DNA of 64,000 bases from Blakeslea trispora (taxonomy: Eukaryota; Mucoromycota; Mucoromycetes; Mucorales; Choanephoraceae), in assembly GCA_025331445.1 (NCBI GenBank), contig JAIWNE010000001.1, positions 496,001 to 560,000 on the forward strand, written 5' to 3'. Under the pieces are notes generated by a model, which was not told where the DNA came from, searched no databases, and worked only from the letters and a program-made list of their open reading frames with translations. Shown here one piece after another: positions 26,015 to 64,000 of the stretch. Position 1 is the stretch's first letter. Every line of letters begins with the position of its first letter. The position numbers and the translations under genes are program-made.

Positions 26015-26559
26015 TGCTTCTAGAAAAGAAAAAACACACATGCTTTCTAATAAAATTCTTTTCTTCACATGGTTGAGTAAAAGATTGTTTTAACAACTCA
26101 TTGAAACGGCTTGTTTCAAACGAAAACTTCCCTATTACTGTGCAGGGCCTAGTGTGCTAATTTTTTTCTTTTCTTTAGAAATCCCAAAAAAAAAGAGGTA
26201 ATTCTTGATTTCCTGACCACTGTAGATTTTGAGTATTTCAAGGTAATTTACCTCAAAATCATACTTGTAGTTCAAACTGATCTATGTGTCAAAAGTGTAT
26301 ACAGTAAGCAGATTTGCACAGCAAGTAAATTCAATGGATTTATGAAGCTAAGAGCACACATAATCTCTTAATAATAGAGGCACAGATTGAAACCATAAAA
26401 GGAAATTATTTTCAAAAATTATGGGATGCCCTACTCACCATTGTGACTCTTTTAATAGGTGGTTTTGGATTAAAATTTTGATTCTCACACTACAGCAATG
26501 CTTTTATTCTAAAAAGAAAGAAAAATTCGACTTGACCCTTAGCAAGAGACGGAGAGACC
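26015..26559. other. intergenic with small hairpins, upstream of transposase-like gene
   Basis: No gene is seen. Two small inverted repeats occur: TTGAAAC...GTTTCAA at 26101-26119 and GATTTTGAG...CTCAAAATC at 26225-26260 with an inner AGGTAA/TTACCT pair. I could not match either to a partner beyond the transposase gene, so they are not shown to be its terminal repeats. Confidence 0.5.
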
Positions 26560-27879
26560 ATGTCAGAACAAGAGGAAAGCTCCCATTTAGTGTCCAGCTT
26601 TCTCGAGACTACCAAGATCTCCCTTCCTTTTATACCCAGCGAGGTGATGGCACTAAAGGAGACTGTCTTGCAGAGCATGAACGATGCTTACCATCAGACC
26701 AACCCCATAGTTTCAAACGGAGATGATATTTCCTTGACGATCATTGATCCTGTCACCTCAACTCGTAAGACGCCCACCAGACGAAACTGCGAATATAAAA
26801 AATATGATGACCAGCAAATCAATGACTATATCAACCTAATCATTGAAGGCATGTCCGTAAAAGAAGCAGCCAAAAAACTAAACATTACAATCAACACTGC
26901 TTACCGCTATCGAAAGATGTGGAATAAGGGCGGCGTAACACCTGTAAGAAACAAGAGAGGTCCACCAGAAGGTGCCATGTCCAAACTAAAAGAAGAGCAT
27001 ACCAAATTTATCATTCAGTATATTGACAGTGAAGAAAAAGATGGCGCTTTAGTGCATATTCGTGAAGCTCTTCAAACAGAGTTTCCTGGTTTAGAAGTCT
27101 CTTGTTCTGCACTGCATCGACATATGAAGTCTAAATGCGCCATCAGTCTGAAGCGAGTTCACTCAGCACCTGAGCCCCGAAATGATGCCGAACTTATTGC
27201 TGCTATTGAAACATGGTTAGCGAGTAAAGATATGGATCTAGAAAGAAACTGTGTGTTTGTGGGTAAAGCTGTCTATAGTCTGCATACATCTCGTCATCAT
27301 GGATGGAAGAATCGAAGCAAGACGAGTGATGCTGCTTCCTTACTTGATCAAAAGCAACAACAACTCAAGGATTCCGCAGGCGGTACAAATATCCACATCC
27401 TGGGAGCCATTTCAGCTAAAGGTGTCATTAATGTATCAACTCGGAAAGGAGAACTTTGGGATCCGCTTGAAAGGGAAATCATGGATACATCAACATCAAA
27501 TACTCTTGAATCCGATCAATATGTTACTTATTTGATGGATGTACTAAATATATTAGATTGTCATCATCTAAATGGATTTTATCTTTTGATGGACGATGCT
27601 CATATCAAGAACCCTATGGCAGTCAAGTCAAGAATTGAAGAACGAGGTTACAAATGTGCTTTTCTACCTACAGTCTTACCCTTTCCTAATCCTGTTGAAA
27701 AGTTCTGGATAAAGACATTAACTGGTGTCAATCGCTCTCCCCTCGTCCAAGCCGAAATCAGTAATCGAATTGCACAAGCATGTTTAAGTGTGACTCCCAA
27801 CGATTGTTGTGAATGGATCCGACAATCTGCTCCCTATTCCCCACTTCGCCTATCTTCTGTAGGAAGAAGTGCAACCTAA
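26560..27879 (+). CDS. DD34E (Tc1/mariner-IS630-like) transposase with altered catalytic triad (439 aa)
   Basis: Intronless ORF from ATG 26560. Residues ~80-125 form a helix-turn-helix (MSVKEAAKKLNITINTAYRY); 145-195 resemble the second DNA-binding half. The DDE domain follows. The second acid is in LLMDDAHIKNP (Asp345) and the third in PNPVEKFW (Glu380), spaced 34 residues apart as in DD34E elements. At the first position, where related enzymes have a DEA-type triplet before a hydrophobic/His-Ser-Arg segment, this protein reads VFVGKAVYSLHTSRHHGW: Gly235-Lys236 replace Asp-Glu. Cleavage activity is therefore unlikely, yet the frame is fully open. It could be a domesticated gene or a recently dead copy. 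I saw no terminal inverted repeats. Confidence 0.85.
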   Translation: MSEQEESSHLVSSFLETTKISLPFIPSEVMALKETVLQSMNDAYHQTNPIVSNGDDISLTIIDPVTSTRKTPTRRNCEYKKYDDQQINDYINLIIEGMSVKEAAKKLNITINTAYRYRKMWNKGGVTPVRNKRGPPEGAMSKLKEEHTKFIIQYIDSEEKDGALVHIREALQTEFPGLEVSCSALHRHMKSKCAISLKRVHSAPEPRNDAELIAAIETWLASKDMDLERNCVFVGKAVYSLHTSRHHGWKNRSKTSDAASLLDQKQQQLKDSAGGTNIHILGAISAKGVINVSTRKGELWDPLEREIMDTSTSNTLESDQYVTYLMDVLNILDCHHLNGFYLLMDDAHIKNPMAVKSRIEERGYKCAFLPTVLPFPNPVEKFWIKTLTGVNRSPLVQAEISNRIAQACLSVTPNDCCEWIRQSAPYSPLRLSSVGRSAT

Positions 27880-57735: not shown

Positions 57736-58918
57736 TGTGTTTGACTTGCTATAAACTGGATAGTAATAATAACAAAAAGAGGATCAAAACGCGAAAAAGT
57801 ACAGGGTTTTTAATATTAATTTCGAAAATTTGTCAATTGACGCAATCTTGTGGGCAAAACGTTTTGCCCAATCGGACATTCGGTAACACGGCCGTGATAT
57901 TCACAGAAAAGAGAAACCTCTTCCCATTTTGAAGTCCTAGAAATTAGGCTTATGATTACACTATCTCTTTGTGTACCAACACTTGAGCCAGTAATTTGAT
58001 TGCTTATTGTTTTGCTTCTATGAGTATGATCAGTATTACCAGTGTAGATGCTGCTCATTGGTTGCACAATTGGCATTGATGATCAAATAGTATTACAAAT
58101 CATACTGTAGAAACAGTAGTACATGTCTAAGCCAAAAGTCTATGATCTTGCATTGATACAAAATGAACACGCAGTTCATACTTGCGTTATGAGCTGTGCT
58201 AGAGAAGTATTCAAAAGAGAATGTAGTGACAAACACTTGTGGTCAATATGATGAAGTTATTATATCACCTTTGAATTTTTTGAACAATATGTTTTCACCT
58301 AGCCAATGCTTACTAATCAATGCACTGTTGATTAAAACAAACGTCTGTTAATGCATAGATTAAGATAAGATCATTTGGGACACAGACCCCTTTTTTTTCA
58401 ATCCATGGTTAAGGGTATCTTATTCTGCTAAATTGACGAGATCTGCTTATTTAAACACAGCTATGTGATACCCAGCCGCATGAATTCTACACTATTTCTA
58501 TTTGAGTTTTGGAAAATTCAAAATAAAGAAATAAACAAGAAAAAGAGAGGCAAACTCATGAACAAGGATTTTAGCAACAAAGTCCTACTGCTCAGAGTAC
58601 CTGAAGCATCAAGTCGATTTGGACAAGTTGAACAATATCATGATTTTTGAAGGACATCAAAACCATGATTCATCCACACCTCACTTGTTTGATGTTGTTC
58701 GCTAAATTGTCTAAGTTTAAAGTAAAAAGAACAAGCATCCTGATTAGTTTATAAGATGCTATTGGCCTACCTAACGTTTTTCTTTTTTATACTACTGAGT
58801 GTCAAAGTTAGCAAGTTTTTACACATGCATCTTCTTTCATGGCAACCCGACCATCGCTAAAAAAGAGTCATTCATGTTGGTATGTTAAAAGCACACATCT
58901 CTAAAAGAACAATCAACA

Positions 58919-58967
58919 ATTCAAGTGTCGAAATGAATTCTAACAGAATTGATTGAGACACTTGAAT
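58919..58967. repeat. 49-bp imperfect hairpin
   Basis: Outer arms ATTCAAGTGTC (58919-58929) and GACACTTGAAT (58957-58967) are perfect, and inner bases pair as AATTCT/AGAATT, so nearly the whole segment folds on itself. Confidence 0.85.
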
Positions 58968-59128
58968 ACAAAATAAGAAATATGATTGCTTTATCTTCTT
59001 TTTATTAAAATTCAACGAAAAAATAAAACGATTTCTAGTCTAATTATGTGTCAAATTGATCTGAAAGCGAGGTCAGAAAGGGAGAGGAGGGTGGCCCATC
59101 ATTTTTCTTATTTTGTATTCTTATGTCC

Positions 59129-59427
59129 AAGTTAGCAAAAAAAAAAGGAACATTGAATTTTGCGGATTTTAATTTTTTTTGCGTACTTGAAATTTTTTTA
59201 CGGGTCAAGATTTTTTTTTATAATACAAATATACGTGAATGCGCAAACCTCCTTATGCAAAAAAAAAATCTTGACCAGCAAAAAAATTCAAGTACACAAC
59301 AAAAAAAAAGCGCGTTTTTTATTTTTTTAAAAAATCAGCATGAAAAAAAAGTATAAGCGCGAATAAAATTATTGCAATATGAAAACTGTTGTATTTGTCT
59401 TTTGAATAGGGTTTTGTAAGTTAGCAA
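59129..59427. repeat. possible foldback element flanked by direct repeats
   Basis: Inside are facing arms GTACTTGAAATTTTTTTACG and a right arm whose complement reads GTACTTGAATTTTTTTGCTG (about 59183-59220 and 59259-59296), ending in GTCAAGA/TCTTGAC. AAGTTAGCAA occurs at 59129-59138 and again at 59418-59427, which could be a target duplication or coincidence in AT-rich DNA. No transposase. MITE-like but unproven. Confidence 0.45.
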
Positions 59428-60044
59428 GTTAAGTGAGACAAATTATAGGCCTTTATTAAGGTGAAGAGAAAAAGTGTTAAATACGATAAAAAACTCTTCT
59501 TAAATTATATAAATGAGCTGTGGTGAATGCCACACTAATAATCACCCTTTCACACACCATTTTCATTTTCTTTAGTTTATAAAGTGGATGTAATCCTTGC
59601 AAGAAGGAAAAAAGGGGTTATACTGGTAAACTAGTAAACTAGTAAACCAGCAAACCAGAAAAGCACCGCGAATACGATTATTCTAAGAAGCCCTCGGAAA
59701 CTGCCTTAGAGTAGAGAAATAGCCAAGATGGAGAATCATTAACAGAGAGAAAGAGAGAGGTGAGCCAAAAGTGTTAGGAACCCCTGTAAAGGAGAACCTG
59801 AGAAGCAAGAGTATAGCATTCCAAGCAATATAAAAAAAGGAAATGCTAACTCGGCAAGAATACCACATAAATTAAGACATCCTCATGAAGCGAAGAAAGA
59901 GTCTCACCTTAGCCTCTTTCAACACGACACTCGGGTAACATAATCAATACCTAATACCTATAATAAAAAAAAAAGTTAGAACTAAAGAGAGAAAAAAAAT
60001 TTCAAGGGAGAAGCTTATTTATAAAGGCAGTAATGACCAATGCC

Positions 60045-60132
60045 GACGCGCCGTTTTGTTTATATTACTTGACCAATTGGGACGCGCCGTTTTGTTTATA
60101 CTACTTGACCAATTGGGACGCGCCGTTTTGTT
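60045..60132. repeat. 36-bp tandem repeat, about 2.4 copies
   Basis: Units beginning GACGCGCCGTTTTGTTTATA start at 60045, 60081 and 60117 with exact 36-bp spacing; one base differs between units 1 and 2 (TATT versus TACT). Each unit ends in TTGACCAATTGG. It sits 26 bp before the large palindrome. Confidence 0.95.
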
Positions 60133-60157
60133 CTTTTTTTTTTTCAATATTATAAAA

Positions 60158-60390
60158 CTAGCCGTGAAGTCTCGCTACGCTCGACTACGGCGTCGCCCTC
60201 TGGGGGCCCTCACGGGTAATGGATTGAGTCAATTTATCTCATTGTTTGTATGAAATTCGATGTTAAGGTAAAGTCACGTGACTGTGCTCCAATTTCATAG
60301 AAACAATGAGATAAATTGACTCAATCCATTACCCGTGAGGGCCCCCAGAGGGCGACGCCGTAGTCGAGCGTAGCGAGACTTCACGGCTAG
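60158..60390. repeat. 233-bp near-perfect palindrome (two 100-bp arms)
   Basis: Left arm 60158-60257 and right arm 60291-60390 are reverse complements at 99 of 100 positions (mismatch at 60248). The 33-bp spacer holds the perfect palindrome AGTCACGTGACT at 60272-60283, close to the centre of the whole. The arms are GC-rich (CTAGCCGTGAAGTCTCGC at the outer end; CTGGGGGCCCTCACGGG inside) in very AT-rich surroundings. Each arm can form two neighbouring stems itself: GCCGT...ACGGC with inner AGTC/GACT (60161-60191), and GCCC...GGGC (60195-60207). The arm also contains the TGAGTCA-type palindrome ATTGAGTCAAT (60223-60233). No target duplication was found. The whole segment has no long ORF. Confidence 0.97.
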
Positions 60391-60971
60391 TGTTTTGATA
60401 TACCAAGATTTTGTATGATTAGGAATCTAAAGAGCAACAAACAAGCATAATGGAAAGTAATAAGCATAACTTTGGCTGAAAAGACATACCCATTATATTG
60501 CAAACTATTAGGGTGTCCCAAAACAAGAGCATATGCTTATTTCACTAGCAAGTAGAAGTCTTTACATCCTTTTCAACCAAAGCTTTGTTGCTCTGGAAAG
60601 TATGTCCCCCTTTTTTTTTCTGCTTTTTATGAACAAGAGAAGAAAAAGTAGCCACCAAGTCAGCATCAGGCTTATGTATTGGATCATTGAATGCTTTGCG
60701 TAAGTTAAGAAGACTGTAGCTTTAACTGTTTATTTCTAGTAAAGCTAAACACAACTGTTACTCTCAAAGAAGTATACTTTAAGCGTGAATAAAAGCAAAC
60801 AAGCACGCTTTATACTTGAGCAGACAATAGTAGTAGTAAGCGACGAGAAGATAGTTGGTATGTTTCTTAGAGTACATAGTGTTAAAGTGTTCTTTTCGAA
60901 AACACATTCTATAATTTACAGTGTCTGAGAAATATCATATTCCCAAAATGAAATTCAAGTCAGCAGGATAT

Positions 60972-60999
60972 GTTAAATGACCGCAAAACGGCATTTAAC
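60972..60999. repeat. small hairpin GTTAAATG...CATTTAAC
   Basis: Stem GTTAAATG(A)CCG with CGGCATTTAAC around a CAAAA loop; one bulged A. It lies about 90 bp upstream of the VPS15 start. Role unknown. Confidence 0.75.
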
Positions 61000-61085
61000 A
61001 AAAAAAAAAGACGCAAGACCCTTTTGTCTATATTTTACTTTCTTTTTTTTTTTTTGTACACTTACTTTTGATCAAATAGCTTGCC

Positions 61086-64000
61086 ATGGGCAATAACATC
61101 TCTAACTTCACCGACATGGCTACTATAAGTAGCTATGTTAACGTCCTGGGAGGTGTTTATTTTGAGAAAAGGTAAAGGAGACACATGCTTTGAATCTATC
61201 GACTGACTCGCCTGTTTATGCAACTCAAGTATTGGAACAGCTCGCTTCATGAAAACGTTACGTGGTAGAAACAAGGACGGATATGTTATCGTCAAACTGT
61301 TTATCAAGCCGGAGTCTGGCATGAATCTATCCAAACAAGTCAAGAAGATAAAAGGTAGCATAATAGCTTGGAGCAGAAACAATCATAATACTGACAAAAG
61401 AGAGAGAGAACAGAGGAATCTGAAGCATTATTGGATGTACCCAACGCATTCTACTTTCAGAGAGTTATGGAAGATGATCGGGCAACCTATCTTGTACGCC
61501 AATACCTATACAGCAGTCTTTATGATCGTATCAGTACCAGACCTTTTTTGACAGTGATTGAGAAGAAATGGGTTGCCTACCAACTCTTGAGAGCTGTAGC
61601 AGACTCTCATGCCCGCAACGTTTATCATGGAGACATAAAGACAGAAAATGTGCTAGTCACTTCTTGGAACTGGGTTTATCTTGTTGATTATGCTTTTTGC
61701 AAGCCTACTTATTTACCAGAGGTCAGTCTATTTACCATCTTAATGTTTCAACTTGCTAGATGATTTTGCTGACGATATTATGTGTGTGTGTGTGTGTGTG
61801 TGTGTGTATTTTAGAATAATCCAGCCAATTATTCATTCTATTTTGATACGTCCTTTAGAAGAACAGGTTATATAGCTCCAGAACGATTTTATGGTCCTGG
61901 ATCAGAGATTGAACAGCGTATCAAAAAAGTAGCTGAAAACGAACACAAGAGTGAGCTGACACCTGGAATGGATATATTTTCAGTTGGGTAATAAGAGAAA
62001 GAAAGAAAGAAAGAAAGGGAGTGTATAGACTGATAACCATCTAGTTGTGTTTTAGCAGAATTGTTCTTGGAAGGTACACCTCTATTCAATCTGTCTCAGC
62101 TCCTGAAATACCGAAGTGGCGATTATAACCCAGATGCAGTGTTGGATCAAATTGAGGATGAACATATACGTGACATGATTAAGCATATGATTCAGATAGA
62201 TCCTACCAAAAGACATTCAGCTGAAGGCTATCTAACTACGTGGCATGGCAAAGCATTCCCTCATTATTTCTTTTCGTTCCTCTATCAGTACATGAGCACT
62301 CTAAACGAGAAAATACCAACTTCACAGTCTCCTCCTCAGCAGCAAAACGAATCTACCATCATGTCAGCCCTGTCTTCGGCTTATCCTAGTGTCAATAGTC
62401 GAAAGGCAACAGATGCAGACGAGAAGATTGAACGCGTCTTTAATGATTTTGAGAAAATACTCTATTTTATCTCTGCACCCTGCGAACAGGAACGCAAGAC
62501 ACGATCTGATTTACCCAACACTACCACAGCATCTTCTATATTACTCGGCCCTGCATCCACCATACCGCCTCACCATACAGTAGACAACAGTTATAAGGAG
62601 GAGCGATCGGAGAAAGAGCAGGAAGAGGATGAGGGCTCACTTATCCTACTGTCGTTTATCTGTTCTCTTATACGGAATTCATTATATCCCAGCACCAAAC
62701 TTAAAGCGCTAGACATTTTGCTTGTACTAGGAGAACGATTGCCAGACGATGTCAAGTTAGATCGATTAGTGCCTTACTTGATTGTGTTATTGACAGACGA
62801 ATCTGCACTTGTCAGGGCTAATGCTATCAAGACACTTACTCAAGTGCTCTGCCTTGTAGAGTCTATTTCGCCTATTAATGCACGTATCTTTCCTGAATAC
62901 ATTATTCCAAGTATTCGTCCATTTTCAACAGACCCAAATGTACTTGTACGATCCACTTATGCCAGTTGCATTGCTCTGCTGGCGGAGACAGGTCTCAAGT
63001 TTCTGGAGATGGCTCAGTTGCTAAAGTCAGACCATGTTTATCCTCCTAATGTTGCTGCTTCTTCAGCATTACCTTCTCACGATTTAGAGTCAGAAGGACT
63101 TGACTATGAATCAGCCTATGATGCCTCTCTACAAGACTTGCAGGCTGTTATCCAAGAGCAAGCGACTATTCTGTTGATTGACAGTGAAAGTGCAGTCAAA
63201 AGAGCTCTCTTGACCAACATTACTTGTCTGTGTGTATTTTTTGGAAGACAGAAAGCAAATGATGTATTACTGAGTCATATGATTACCTATCTAAACGATA
63301 AAGATTGGATGTTGCGAAGTGCTTTCTTTGAGAGTATTAAGGGTGTAGGTACATTTGTGGGTGCCAAAAGTCTAGAAGAGTACATTTTGCCCCTCATGAT
63401 TCAAGCATTAACAGGTAAGAAGATAACACAATGAACTGGGATTGAACTGAAAGTCGATATGGCACGAGTAGATGCAGAAGAGTTCGTAGTTGAAAAAGTT
63501 CTCAATTCACTTACTAGCTTGGCCGATCTTGGTTTGTTTCAAAAGATGAAATTATGGGAGCTTGTAGGCATCATTTGGCCCTTGATTTGTCATCCCAATA
63601 TCTGGATTCGATACGGTGCTATTGGATTTATTTCATCTACTGCAAAGAGTTTGCCGAGAACTGATCTTTGGTGCATTATATACCCTATGTTACGACCCTT
63701 TTTACGTTCTGATATTGCAGAAGTGAATGAAGCTACATTACTTGAAAATGTTGAATCGCCCGTAAGGATCTGCATAGATATAAGGTGGCTTTCTATAGGA
63801 CTCATAAATCATGCATATCTATAGATTTCTCGACAAGTCTATGAACAGGCCATTGTTTGGGCAACGAAAGCTACAAAACAATCGAACTTTTGGAAACAAC
63901 AGATTAGTAAGCCAGTAAAAGATATCATGTCTTCCAAACTTCCACGACTTTCAATGACAACATCCAACTATAAGCAAGGTAAGCCATTTTGCTGAACTGT
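61086..64000 (+). CDS. VPS15: VPS15 Ser/Thr kinase, PI3-kinase regulatory subunit, 5' part (3' partial)
   Basis: Exons 61086-61171, 61230-61354, 61414-61721, 61815-61987, 62045-63414, 63469-63761 and 63825-63978, then an intron open to the right edge. MGNNISNF has Gly2 for myristoylation, as in yeast Vps15. The kinase domain has RFMKTLRGRNKDGYVIVKLF, then HGDIKTENVLV and DTSFRRTGYIAPERF, then GMDIFSVGCVLAELFLEG. After the kinase come an acidic Glu/Ser linker and HEAT repeats (LKALDILLVLGERLP, PSIRPFSTDPNVLVRSTYAS, IWIRYGAIGFIS). It partners Vps34 in endosome and autophagy PI3P synthesis; the WD40 end lies beyond the window. Activation-loop DFG reads DYA, as in other VPS15 proteins with weak kinase activity. 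Confidence 0.93.
61781..61807. repeat. (TG)n microsatellite in VPS15 intron 3
   Basis: About 13 TG units inside the 93-bp intron 61722-61814, just before the polypyrimidine tract and TTTTAG acceptor; this explains why this intron is longer than the gene's other introns. Confidence 0.95.

Follow-up and report, generated by a model that had tools for sequence, protein, structure and literature searches.

Two outward-facing Helitron 3′ ends form a near-perfect palindrome in Blakeslea trispora

Introduction

Canonical Helitrons, as represented by Helibat and Helraiser in the passages of PMC4778049 on element structure, have TC and CTAG termini, insert between A and T, and possess a foldable 3′ region. 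According to the passages of the same study on read-through (PMC4778049), the 3′ hairpin of Helraiser serves as a stop signal, deletion of the hairpin leads to more read-through, and the authors extend this idea to a hairpin that is present but goes unrecognized; transposition of Helraiser requires the 5′ end. Read-through accompanied by new 3′ ends is described there both for Helraiser assays and for Myotis copies, and insertion of Helitrons beside other Helitrons is reported for bat elements (PMC4778049). Among fungi, the insertion of one Helitron into another in the opposite orientation, with a later loss of inner termini, was proposed for Fusarium oxysporum in the relevant part of PMC5148889. 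A CTTG terminus is on record for the HELPO2 family of Pleurotus in the family descriptions of PMC4289320, and Helitrons are numerous in Mucor genomes, as stated in the portion of PMC7928374 concerned with these elements.

The palindrome described here lies in a 64-kb window, which is the whole stretch of Blakeslea trispora DNA that was analyzed. It shares with the described Helibat and Helraiser elements the terminal sequences, the A/T insertion site (in such notation a slash marks a junction), a putatively foldable 3′ region, and the presence of RepHel-type relatives in the genome, but differs from them in having two head-to-head 3′ ends and only 8 nt of a 5′ end. The Fusarium composites, as far as the cited part of PMC5148889 describes them, are of the Helitron2 type and carry multiple 5′ termini or reversed ORFs, whereas the window contains a canonical-type mini-element whose doubled 3′ end forms a palindrome. 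In common with the read-through products of Helraiser and Myotis described in PMC4778049, downstream DNA is found right behind CTAG and a putative new terminus lies farther on; in contrast to them, the window case comes from a single locus without an empty site, and its new end would be CTTG. Known neighboring Helitrons are products of successive insertions, as the parts of the palindrome probably are, but their sequences differ and stand side by side, whereas in the window near-identical ends are nested in one palindrome.

Results

Structure of the palindrome

The earlier note on this window described a near-perfect palindrome of two arms around a 33-bp spacer with a 12-bp palindrome inside, and both observations hold. 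The inverted arms of 100 nt each (Table 1) have a sole mismatch at arm position 91 (G in the left arm, C in the right one), and the spacer carries AGTCACGTGACT at 60272-60283. The arms had also been called GC-rich, which is true of the outer 67 nt of each arm (64% GC) and not of the inner 33 nt (24%); the flanks have 35%. Of the extent given for the palindrome, 60158 to 60390, the left border stands; the borders that matter are 60158 and 60398, with 58732 as a possible outer edge, rather than 60390.

With 12-base seeds, the palindrome is the only close inverted repeat of at least 35 nt within the 64-kb window; the four other inverted pairs found with these seeds are 71-83% complementary and 0.9-40 kb apart. 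With 9-base seeds applied to 59-62 kb, a weaker AT-rich pair is seen at 59173-59305 (47 nt, 74%, spacing 39 nt). Hairpin-like repeats as such are therefore not unique in this region, but none approaches the palindrome in quality. The predicted fold of the 241-nt element as single-stranded DNA has an energy of -132.1 kcal/mol (shuffle mean -27.1, z -33), compared with -13 to -15 kcal/mol for a single 3′ end of the family introduced below.

Table 1. Coordinates of the palindrome and its left flank in the window, and loci of copies of a second Helitron family with extra sequence just upstream of the 5′ end.
Feature	Position	Strand	Remarks
Resident Helitron 3′ end, ...GGCTAG	60158..60257	-	Terminal base 60158, then T (60157); 99-100% like the other arm
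Spacer, 33-nt 5′ subterminal Helitron sequence (GGAGCACAGTCACGTGACTTTACC...) including AGTCACGTGACT	60258..60290	-	Continuous with the 5′ region of L010, L009, and L051
Second 3′ end, reversed	60291..60390	+	99 of 100 positions as in the first arm; terminal base 60390, exact CTAG beside the minus-strand A
Residual 5′ terminus TCAAAACA, 8 nt	60391..60398	-	A (60399) precedes on the minus strand
Segment putatively carried by 3′ read-through	58732..60157	-	Duplicated at C1:96979-98433; edge uncertain within 58730-58732
Candidate new 3′ end, GCATC-15 nt-GATGC then TTG/T (CTTG terminus)	58732..58759	-	Only here and at C1:96979-97014
Copies with extra upstream sequence ending in GGGCCTAAAATTAA	L044, L045, L046, L047, L049, L050, L052, L054		

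The arm is the 3′ end of a Helitron family

The palindrome consists of two 3′ ends of one Helitron family that point away from each other. A search of the genome with the arm gave 15 matches, two of which are the arms of the window themselves. The 25-nt terminal pattern, at up to three mismatches, is found genome-wide at 16 sites, again including both arms, and its reversed control at none. The copy count with one arm that the earlier note had proposed thus returned, in this genome, further copies of the end at 14 other places. The guess that a mobile element is involved was right, since the arm belongs, as the 3′ end, to a Helitron family with many copies. T comes directly after each of the 16 ends, which read CTAG/T in 15 cases and TTAG/T in one (read on the opposite strand, A precedes the end in 16 of 16). 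At all 13 places covered with kilobase flanks (L009-L021), the end is single and a second 3′ end was not found; the 14th place, on contig C30, was covered over 601 bases only. No second palindromic copy was found in the genome.

On contigs C63 and C253, the family end runs into RepHel-type genes with the Helitron_like_N, PIF1, and Pif1_2B domains (matches to PF14214, PF05970, and PF21530). The reading frames of both elements are in pieces, and the C253 element contains an insert of ~4.3 kb relative to the C63 one. The genome as a whole has 134 Helitron_like_N matches. Complete mini-Helitrons of the form A/TCAAAACATATA...CTAG/T are represented by L010 on C13 (158 nt) and L009 on C57 (167 nt). 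At the latter locus (L009:2529-2750), the 5′ end of another Helitron begins 4 bp past the CTAG of the complete mini-Helitron, which suggests that Helitrons in this genome insert beside each other.

The 5′ end of the family is widespread, with 42 genome matches, some of them partial. In the comparison of 5′ ends, copies whose flanks were the same count once, and no locus was assigned to 12 of the 42 matches; of the 25 ends listed, the window and L051, in which the first 29 nt are different or missing, were set aside. All 23 remaining distinct complete 5′ ends stand directly after A, and nearly all read TCAAAACAT.

The 66-nt family end has a predicted fold of -13.1 kcal/mol (z -1.9, equaled by 10 of 200 shuffles; z -2.6 for 100 nt), and for L010 the z value is -1.3, with 22 of 200 shuffles as good. 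A single family end thus folds just slightly better than shuffled sequence. The predicted stem of the family end stops 3-4 nt from the terminus, in contrast to the usual 10-12 nt and to the 11 nt given for Helraiser in the structural description of PMC4778049.

Class assignment

Feature by feature, the window element corresponds to a canonical Helitron at both outer borders. The 3′ rule, CTRR followed by the target T, is seen as CTAG/T at 60158/60157, and the 5′ rule, TC after A, as A/TCAAAACA at 60399/60398, where no more than 8 nt of the 5′ end are left. RepHel-encoding partners are provided by the C253 and C63 elements, which share the 3′ end. Terminal inverted repeats, foreign to canonical Helitrons, are lacking in L009 and L010 but arise in the window copy from the doubled end, and so we file it as a rearranged Helitron derivative and not as a normal member.

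Three other classes do not fit the element. Helitron2 and Helentron elements, which the classification part of PMC5148889 characterizes by asymmetric short terminal inverted repeats and terminal sequences of their own, do not agree with a family ending in TC...CTAG between A and T. A MITE or fold-back DNA transposon is rejected since no direct repeat is present between the flanks TTATAAAA (left) and TGTTTTGATATAC (after 60390), and the occurrence of the arms as single ends elsewhere in the genome also argues against this class. The double-hairpin elements of fungal mitochondria likewise consist of GC-rich foldable sequence, and the earlier note had been reminded of them. This likeness finds no support: the palindrome, unlike those elements, has Helitron termini and RepHel-type relatives and is situated on an 875-kb contig, near nuclear genes for a VPS15-like protein and a heavy-metal P-type ATPase.

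Origin of the palindrome

On the minus strand, the order is A, TCAAAACA (60398-60391), 60390-60291, 33 nt, 60257-60158, and T. The element is thus bordered by A/TC and CTAG/T, its arms are both 3′ ends of one family, and the 5′ subterminal sequence that makes up the spacer also belongs to that family. ATCAAAACA occurs twice among the 128,000 positions of the window, and one of the occurrences is the 5′ border of the element. The first base of the inverted copy is exactly the terminal one, and it comes right after an A that precedes T in intact 5′ ends; A/T sites make up 4 of the 26 positions within the 27-nt 5′ stretch that holds this point. A short direct repeat marks the inner junction: the inverted 3′ end has TATGAAATT-CGATG, and the 5′ end has ACTGAAATTTGAGCACAG in the C253 form or GAAAAATTAGAGCACAG in the L010 form. 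The window reads TATGAAATTGGAGCACAG, one base off the prediction of a deletion from either form. A simple circle junction was rejected because CTAG/TCAAAACA is expected in that case, whereas the plus strand has CTAG/TGTTTTGA.

The probable explanation is a defective composite of non-autonomous Helitrons, formed by reverse self-insertion and central deletion, with a possible 3′ read-through. A mini-Helitron copy would have inserted in the reverse orientation into the A/T dinucleotide that follows position 8 in the 5′ end of the resident (TCAAAACA/TATATT); it was probably an offspring or sister of the resident. The insertion would produce a long palindrome, and its center may then have been deleted between short direct repeats, AAATT or TGAAATT (5-7 nt, by the choice of parent relative), leaving the 33-nt asymmetric spacer. 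An exact outer terminus next to the A of an A/T site points to this scenario because insertion yields both directly. Insertion of Helitrons close to one another, as at L009, also speaks for it. The relationship of the arms is consistent with it. A T at arm position 44 is common to both window arms and absent in 13 of 13 other copies, which makes the arms each other's nearest relatives; therefore, the copy that inserted descended from the resident or was its sister, or else the arms were converted. The evidence against self-insertion is that the palindromic copy is single in the genome, and that a fold-back during replication could give an identical inner junction.

In such a fold-back, the nascent strand would snap back during copying of a mini-Helitron, at TGAAATT/AATTTCA in the 5′ region, copy itself out to the 3′ terminus, and then rejoin the template near the 5′ end. 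The parent form does hold this pair, L010 is predicted to pair there, and the inner junction is explained as well as by deletion, together with the near-identity of the arms. However, a second switch would be needed exactly at the terminal CTAG base and beside the A of an A/T site, and we regard this route as unlikely. Least probable of all is an assembly or snap-back artefact. Chimeric reads or amplification can create long palindromes, but here the two arms differ by one base, the outer borders are both exact Helitron termini with different flanks, and the spacer is asymmetric and matches intact relatives; it is the exact termini and the one-base difference that make an artefact unlikely.

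The element today is most likely an immobile relic, because no more of its 5′ end remains than 8 nt; and since Helraiser needs its 5′ end, the palindromic form may never have moved.

Duplication of the left flank

The left flank, 58730-60157, has a duplicate at C1:96979-98433; the two differ at 22 of 1,387 aligned bases, and their alignment contains 109 gap columns (for the part up to 60096, BLAST against C1 gives 1,435 columns with 27 mismatches and 70 gaps). The edge of the duplication is exactly at 60157/60158, that is, at the Helitron terminus. The C1 counterpart continues as ...TTATAAAA/TAAAAAAAA, with an intact A/T site at 98433/98434. The right flank, 60391-61080, has no other match in the genome at an E value of 0.001. 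Three 36-bp tandem units at 60034-60141 abut the left side of the palindrome, and two units are present in the C1 duplicate; a related segment is found at C168:313353-313923.

At the far edge of the duplication, the minus strand reads GCATC-15 nt-GATGC-TTG/TT, a layout like that of the family's own end, ...ACGGC-TAG/T, with an ambiguity of 2 nt. On the minus strand of the window, a stem exactly 3 nt from the end is found at 535 of 19,822 T-followed sites and at 5 of 272 CTNG/T sites, counts to be read with the reservation that this layout was tested only after being seen; a 5-bp stem with a tail of 2-14 nt before T is common (4,345 of 19,822 sites).

There is about an even chance that the flank was acquired by 3′ read-through from a C1-type donor, in which case the whole insertion would be a composite of 1,667 bp (58732-60398). 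The element or its precursor would have been located at the A/T site of a locus of the C1:98.4-kb type, would have passed its own 3′ terminator, and would have carried 1.43 kb of downstream DNA to the present place, ending at a new hairpin and CTTG/T. If so, the outer flanks before insertion would join as ...AAAAAGAA/TATACC. We lean to read-through because the flank match ends at the terminus, the far edge resembles the family end, and the CTTG of HELPO2 provides a precedent. Against transduction, the C1 site has no Helitron at present, and the segment, itself a repeat patchwork, has numerous partial copies in the genome (52 matches). The 8-nt remnant of the 5′ end also counts against it, since Helraiser depends on that end (PMC4778049). 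A third related copy, on C168 (80-81%), stops before the junction and therefore does not tell the ancestral locus.

The competing explanation, only slightly short of an even chance, is that the flank was copied by a common segmental duplication, or by repair of a break at the palindrome base, the coincidence of its edge with the Helitron terminus being due to chance or breakage. Long palindromes are known to break, the segment is a repeat mosaic, and the related C168 copy also stops near the palindrome-side edge. On the other side, the edge matches the terminus to the base and the opposite edge resembles a Helitron 3′ end. This alternative rivals transduction only and leaves the Helitron identity of the palindrome unchanged.

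Near-identity of the arms had been taken as a sign of recent origin or conversion. This fits the 99% identity, but a comparison with the adjacent duplication gives no measurable sign that the arms are younger (1 difference in 100 versus 22 in 1387, Fisher p 1.0). Since the divergence of arms and flank is alike, it does not give the order of events; transduction might be earlier than the palindrome.

Just beyond the donor segment, C1:96957-96972 (GGCTAGTGTTATTTGA) resembles the right border of the palindrome (GGCTAGTGTTTTGA). Random comparisons reached a score as high as that of the 10-nt match GGCTAGTGTT (C1:96957) 114 and 174 times in 20,000, and at up to two mismatches the genome has 56 matches to the 16-nt pattern versus 27 to the reversed control. 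With these weak statistics, the likeness may be a remnant of some tandem or circular arrangement.

Neighborhood and other repeats

The gene to the right of the palindrome is VPS15-like (PF22956), with an apparent ATG at 61086 in our reading; the gene at 57.1-57.7 kb is presumably glyoxalase-like. The palindrome thus stands ~690 bp upstream of the apparent VPS15 start and, judging by the DNA fold prediction, would fold strongly if transcribed. It could accordingly be thought of as a selected functional hairpin, for example, a candidate hairpin RNA that regulates VPS15 or serves as a source for RNA silencing. We consider this very improbable, as the structure is explained by transposition without selection and no Rfam match exists within the window; neither Rfam at gathering thresholds nor ARAGORN gave matches there. 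The exact arm pattern had no match in viral contigs.

Other repeats and mobile-element traces were also observed. In the window, a 447-aa ORF at 26536-27879 has helix-turn-helix matches above the cut-off and a DDE_3 match below it, and is transposase-like. On C19 (66701-68905), the locus L038 has 877-nt inverted arms (402-1278 and 1730-2606) that are 100% identical around a spacer of 451 nt, and a broken Helitron RepHel region lies a few kilobases downstream; these arms stem either from an inverted duplication of recent date or from an artefact of assembly. A second Helitron family, with 5′ ends TCAAAACATG..., has extra sequence of graded length just upstream of the 5′ end, shared by 8 of 11 copies listed (Table 1). 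Inverted repeats of 30-73 nt are found in or just upstream of this sequence in L044, L045, L046, L049, and L052, and L050 resembles L044 with the center of the inverted repeat deleted.

Discussion

The palindrome is an accident of a known kind of mobile DNA and not a new kind of element. Self-insertion and transduction are already published for Helitrons, whereas the double-terminator fold-back is apparently a new variation; in the titles and abstract openings of the open-licence PMC papers listed in our searches we found no Helitron with a palindromic double 3′ end.

The two processes may be connected. In one scenario, which has a limited though real chance, the locus is a natural terminator knock-out: reverse self-insertion would mask the 3′ terminator, the transposase would read through, and 1.43 kb would be carried along up to a hairpin-CTTG end arisen by chance. 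In this scenario, the stop signal would be hidden because the predicted folds allow the 3′ end to pair with its inverted counterpart. If this is true, self-insertion would be a route to DNA capture by Helitrons; evidence that the palindrome came first and the read-through second would link the two.

In summary, an unexplained palindrome acquires a readable history, consisting of a mini-element, a reverse self-insertion, and a possible 3′ read-through. By way of caution, a long near-perfect palindrome in a genome of this sort may be a composite of Helitrons and does not have to be a regulatory or silencing locus.
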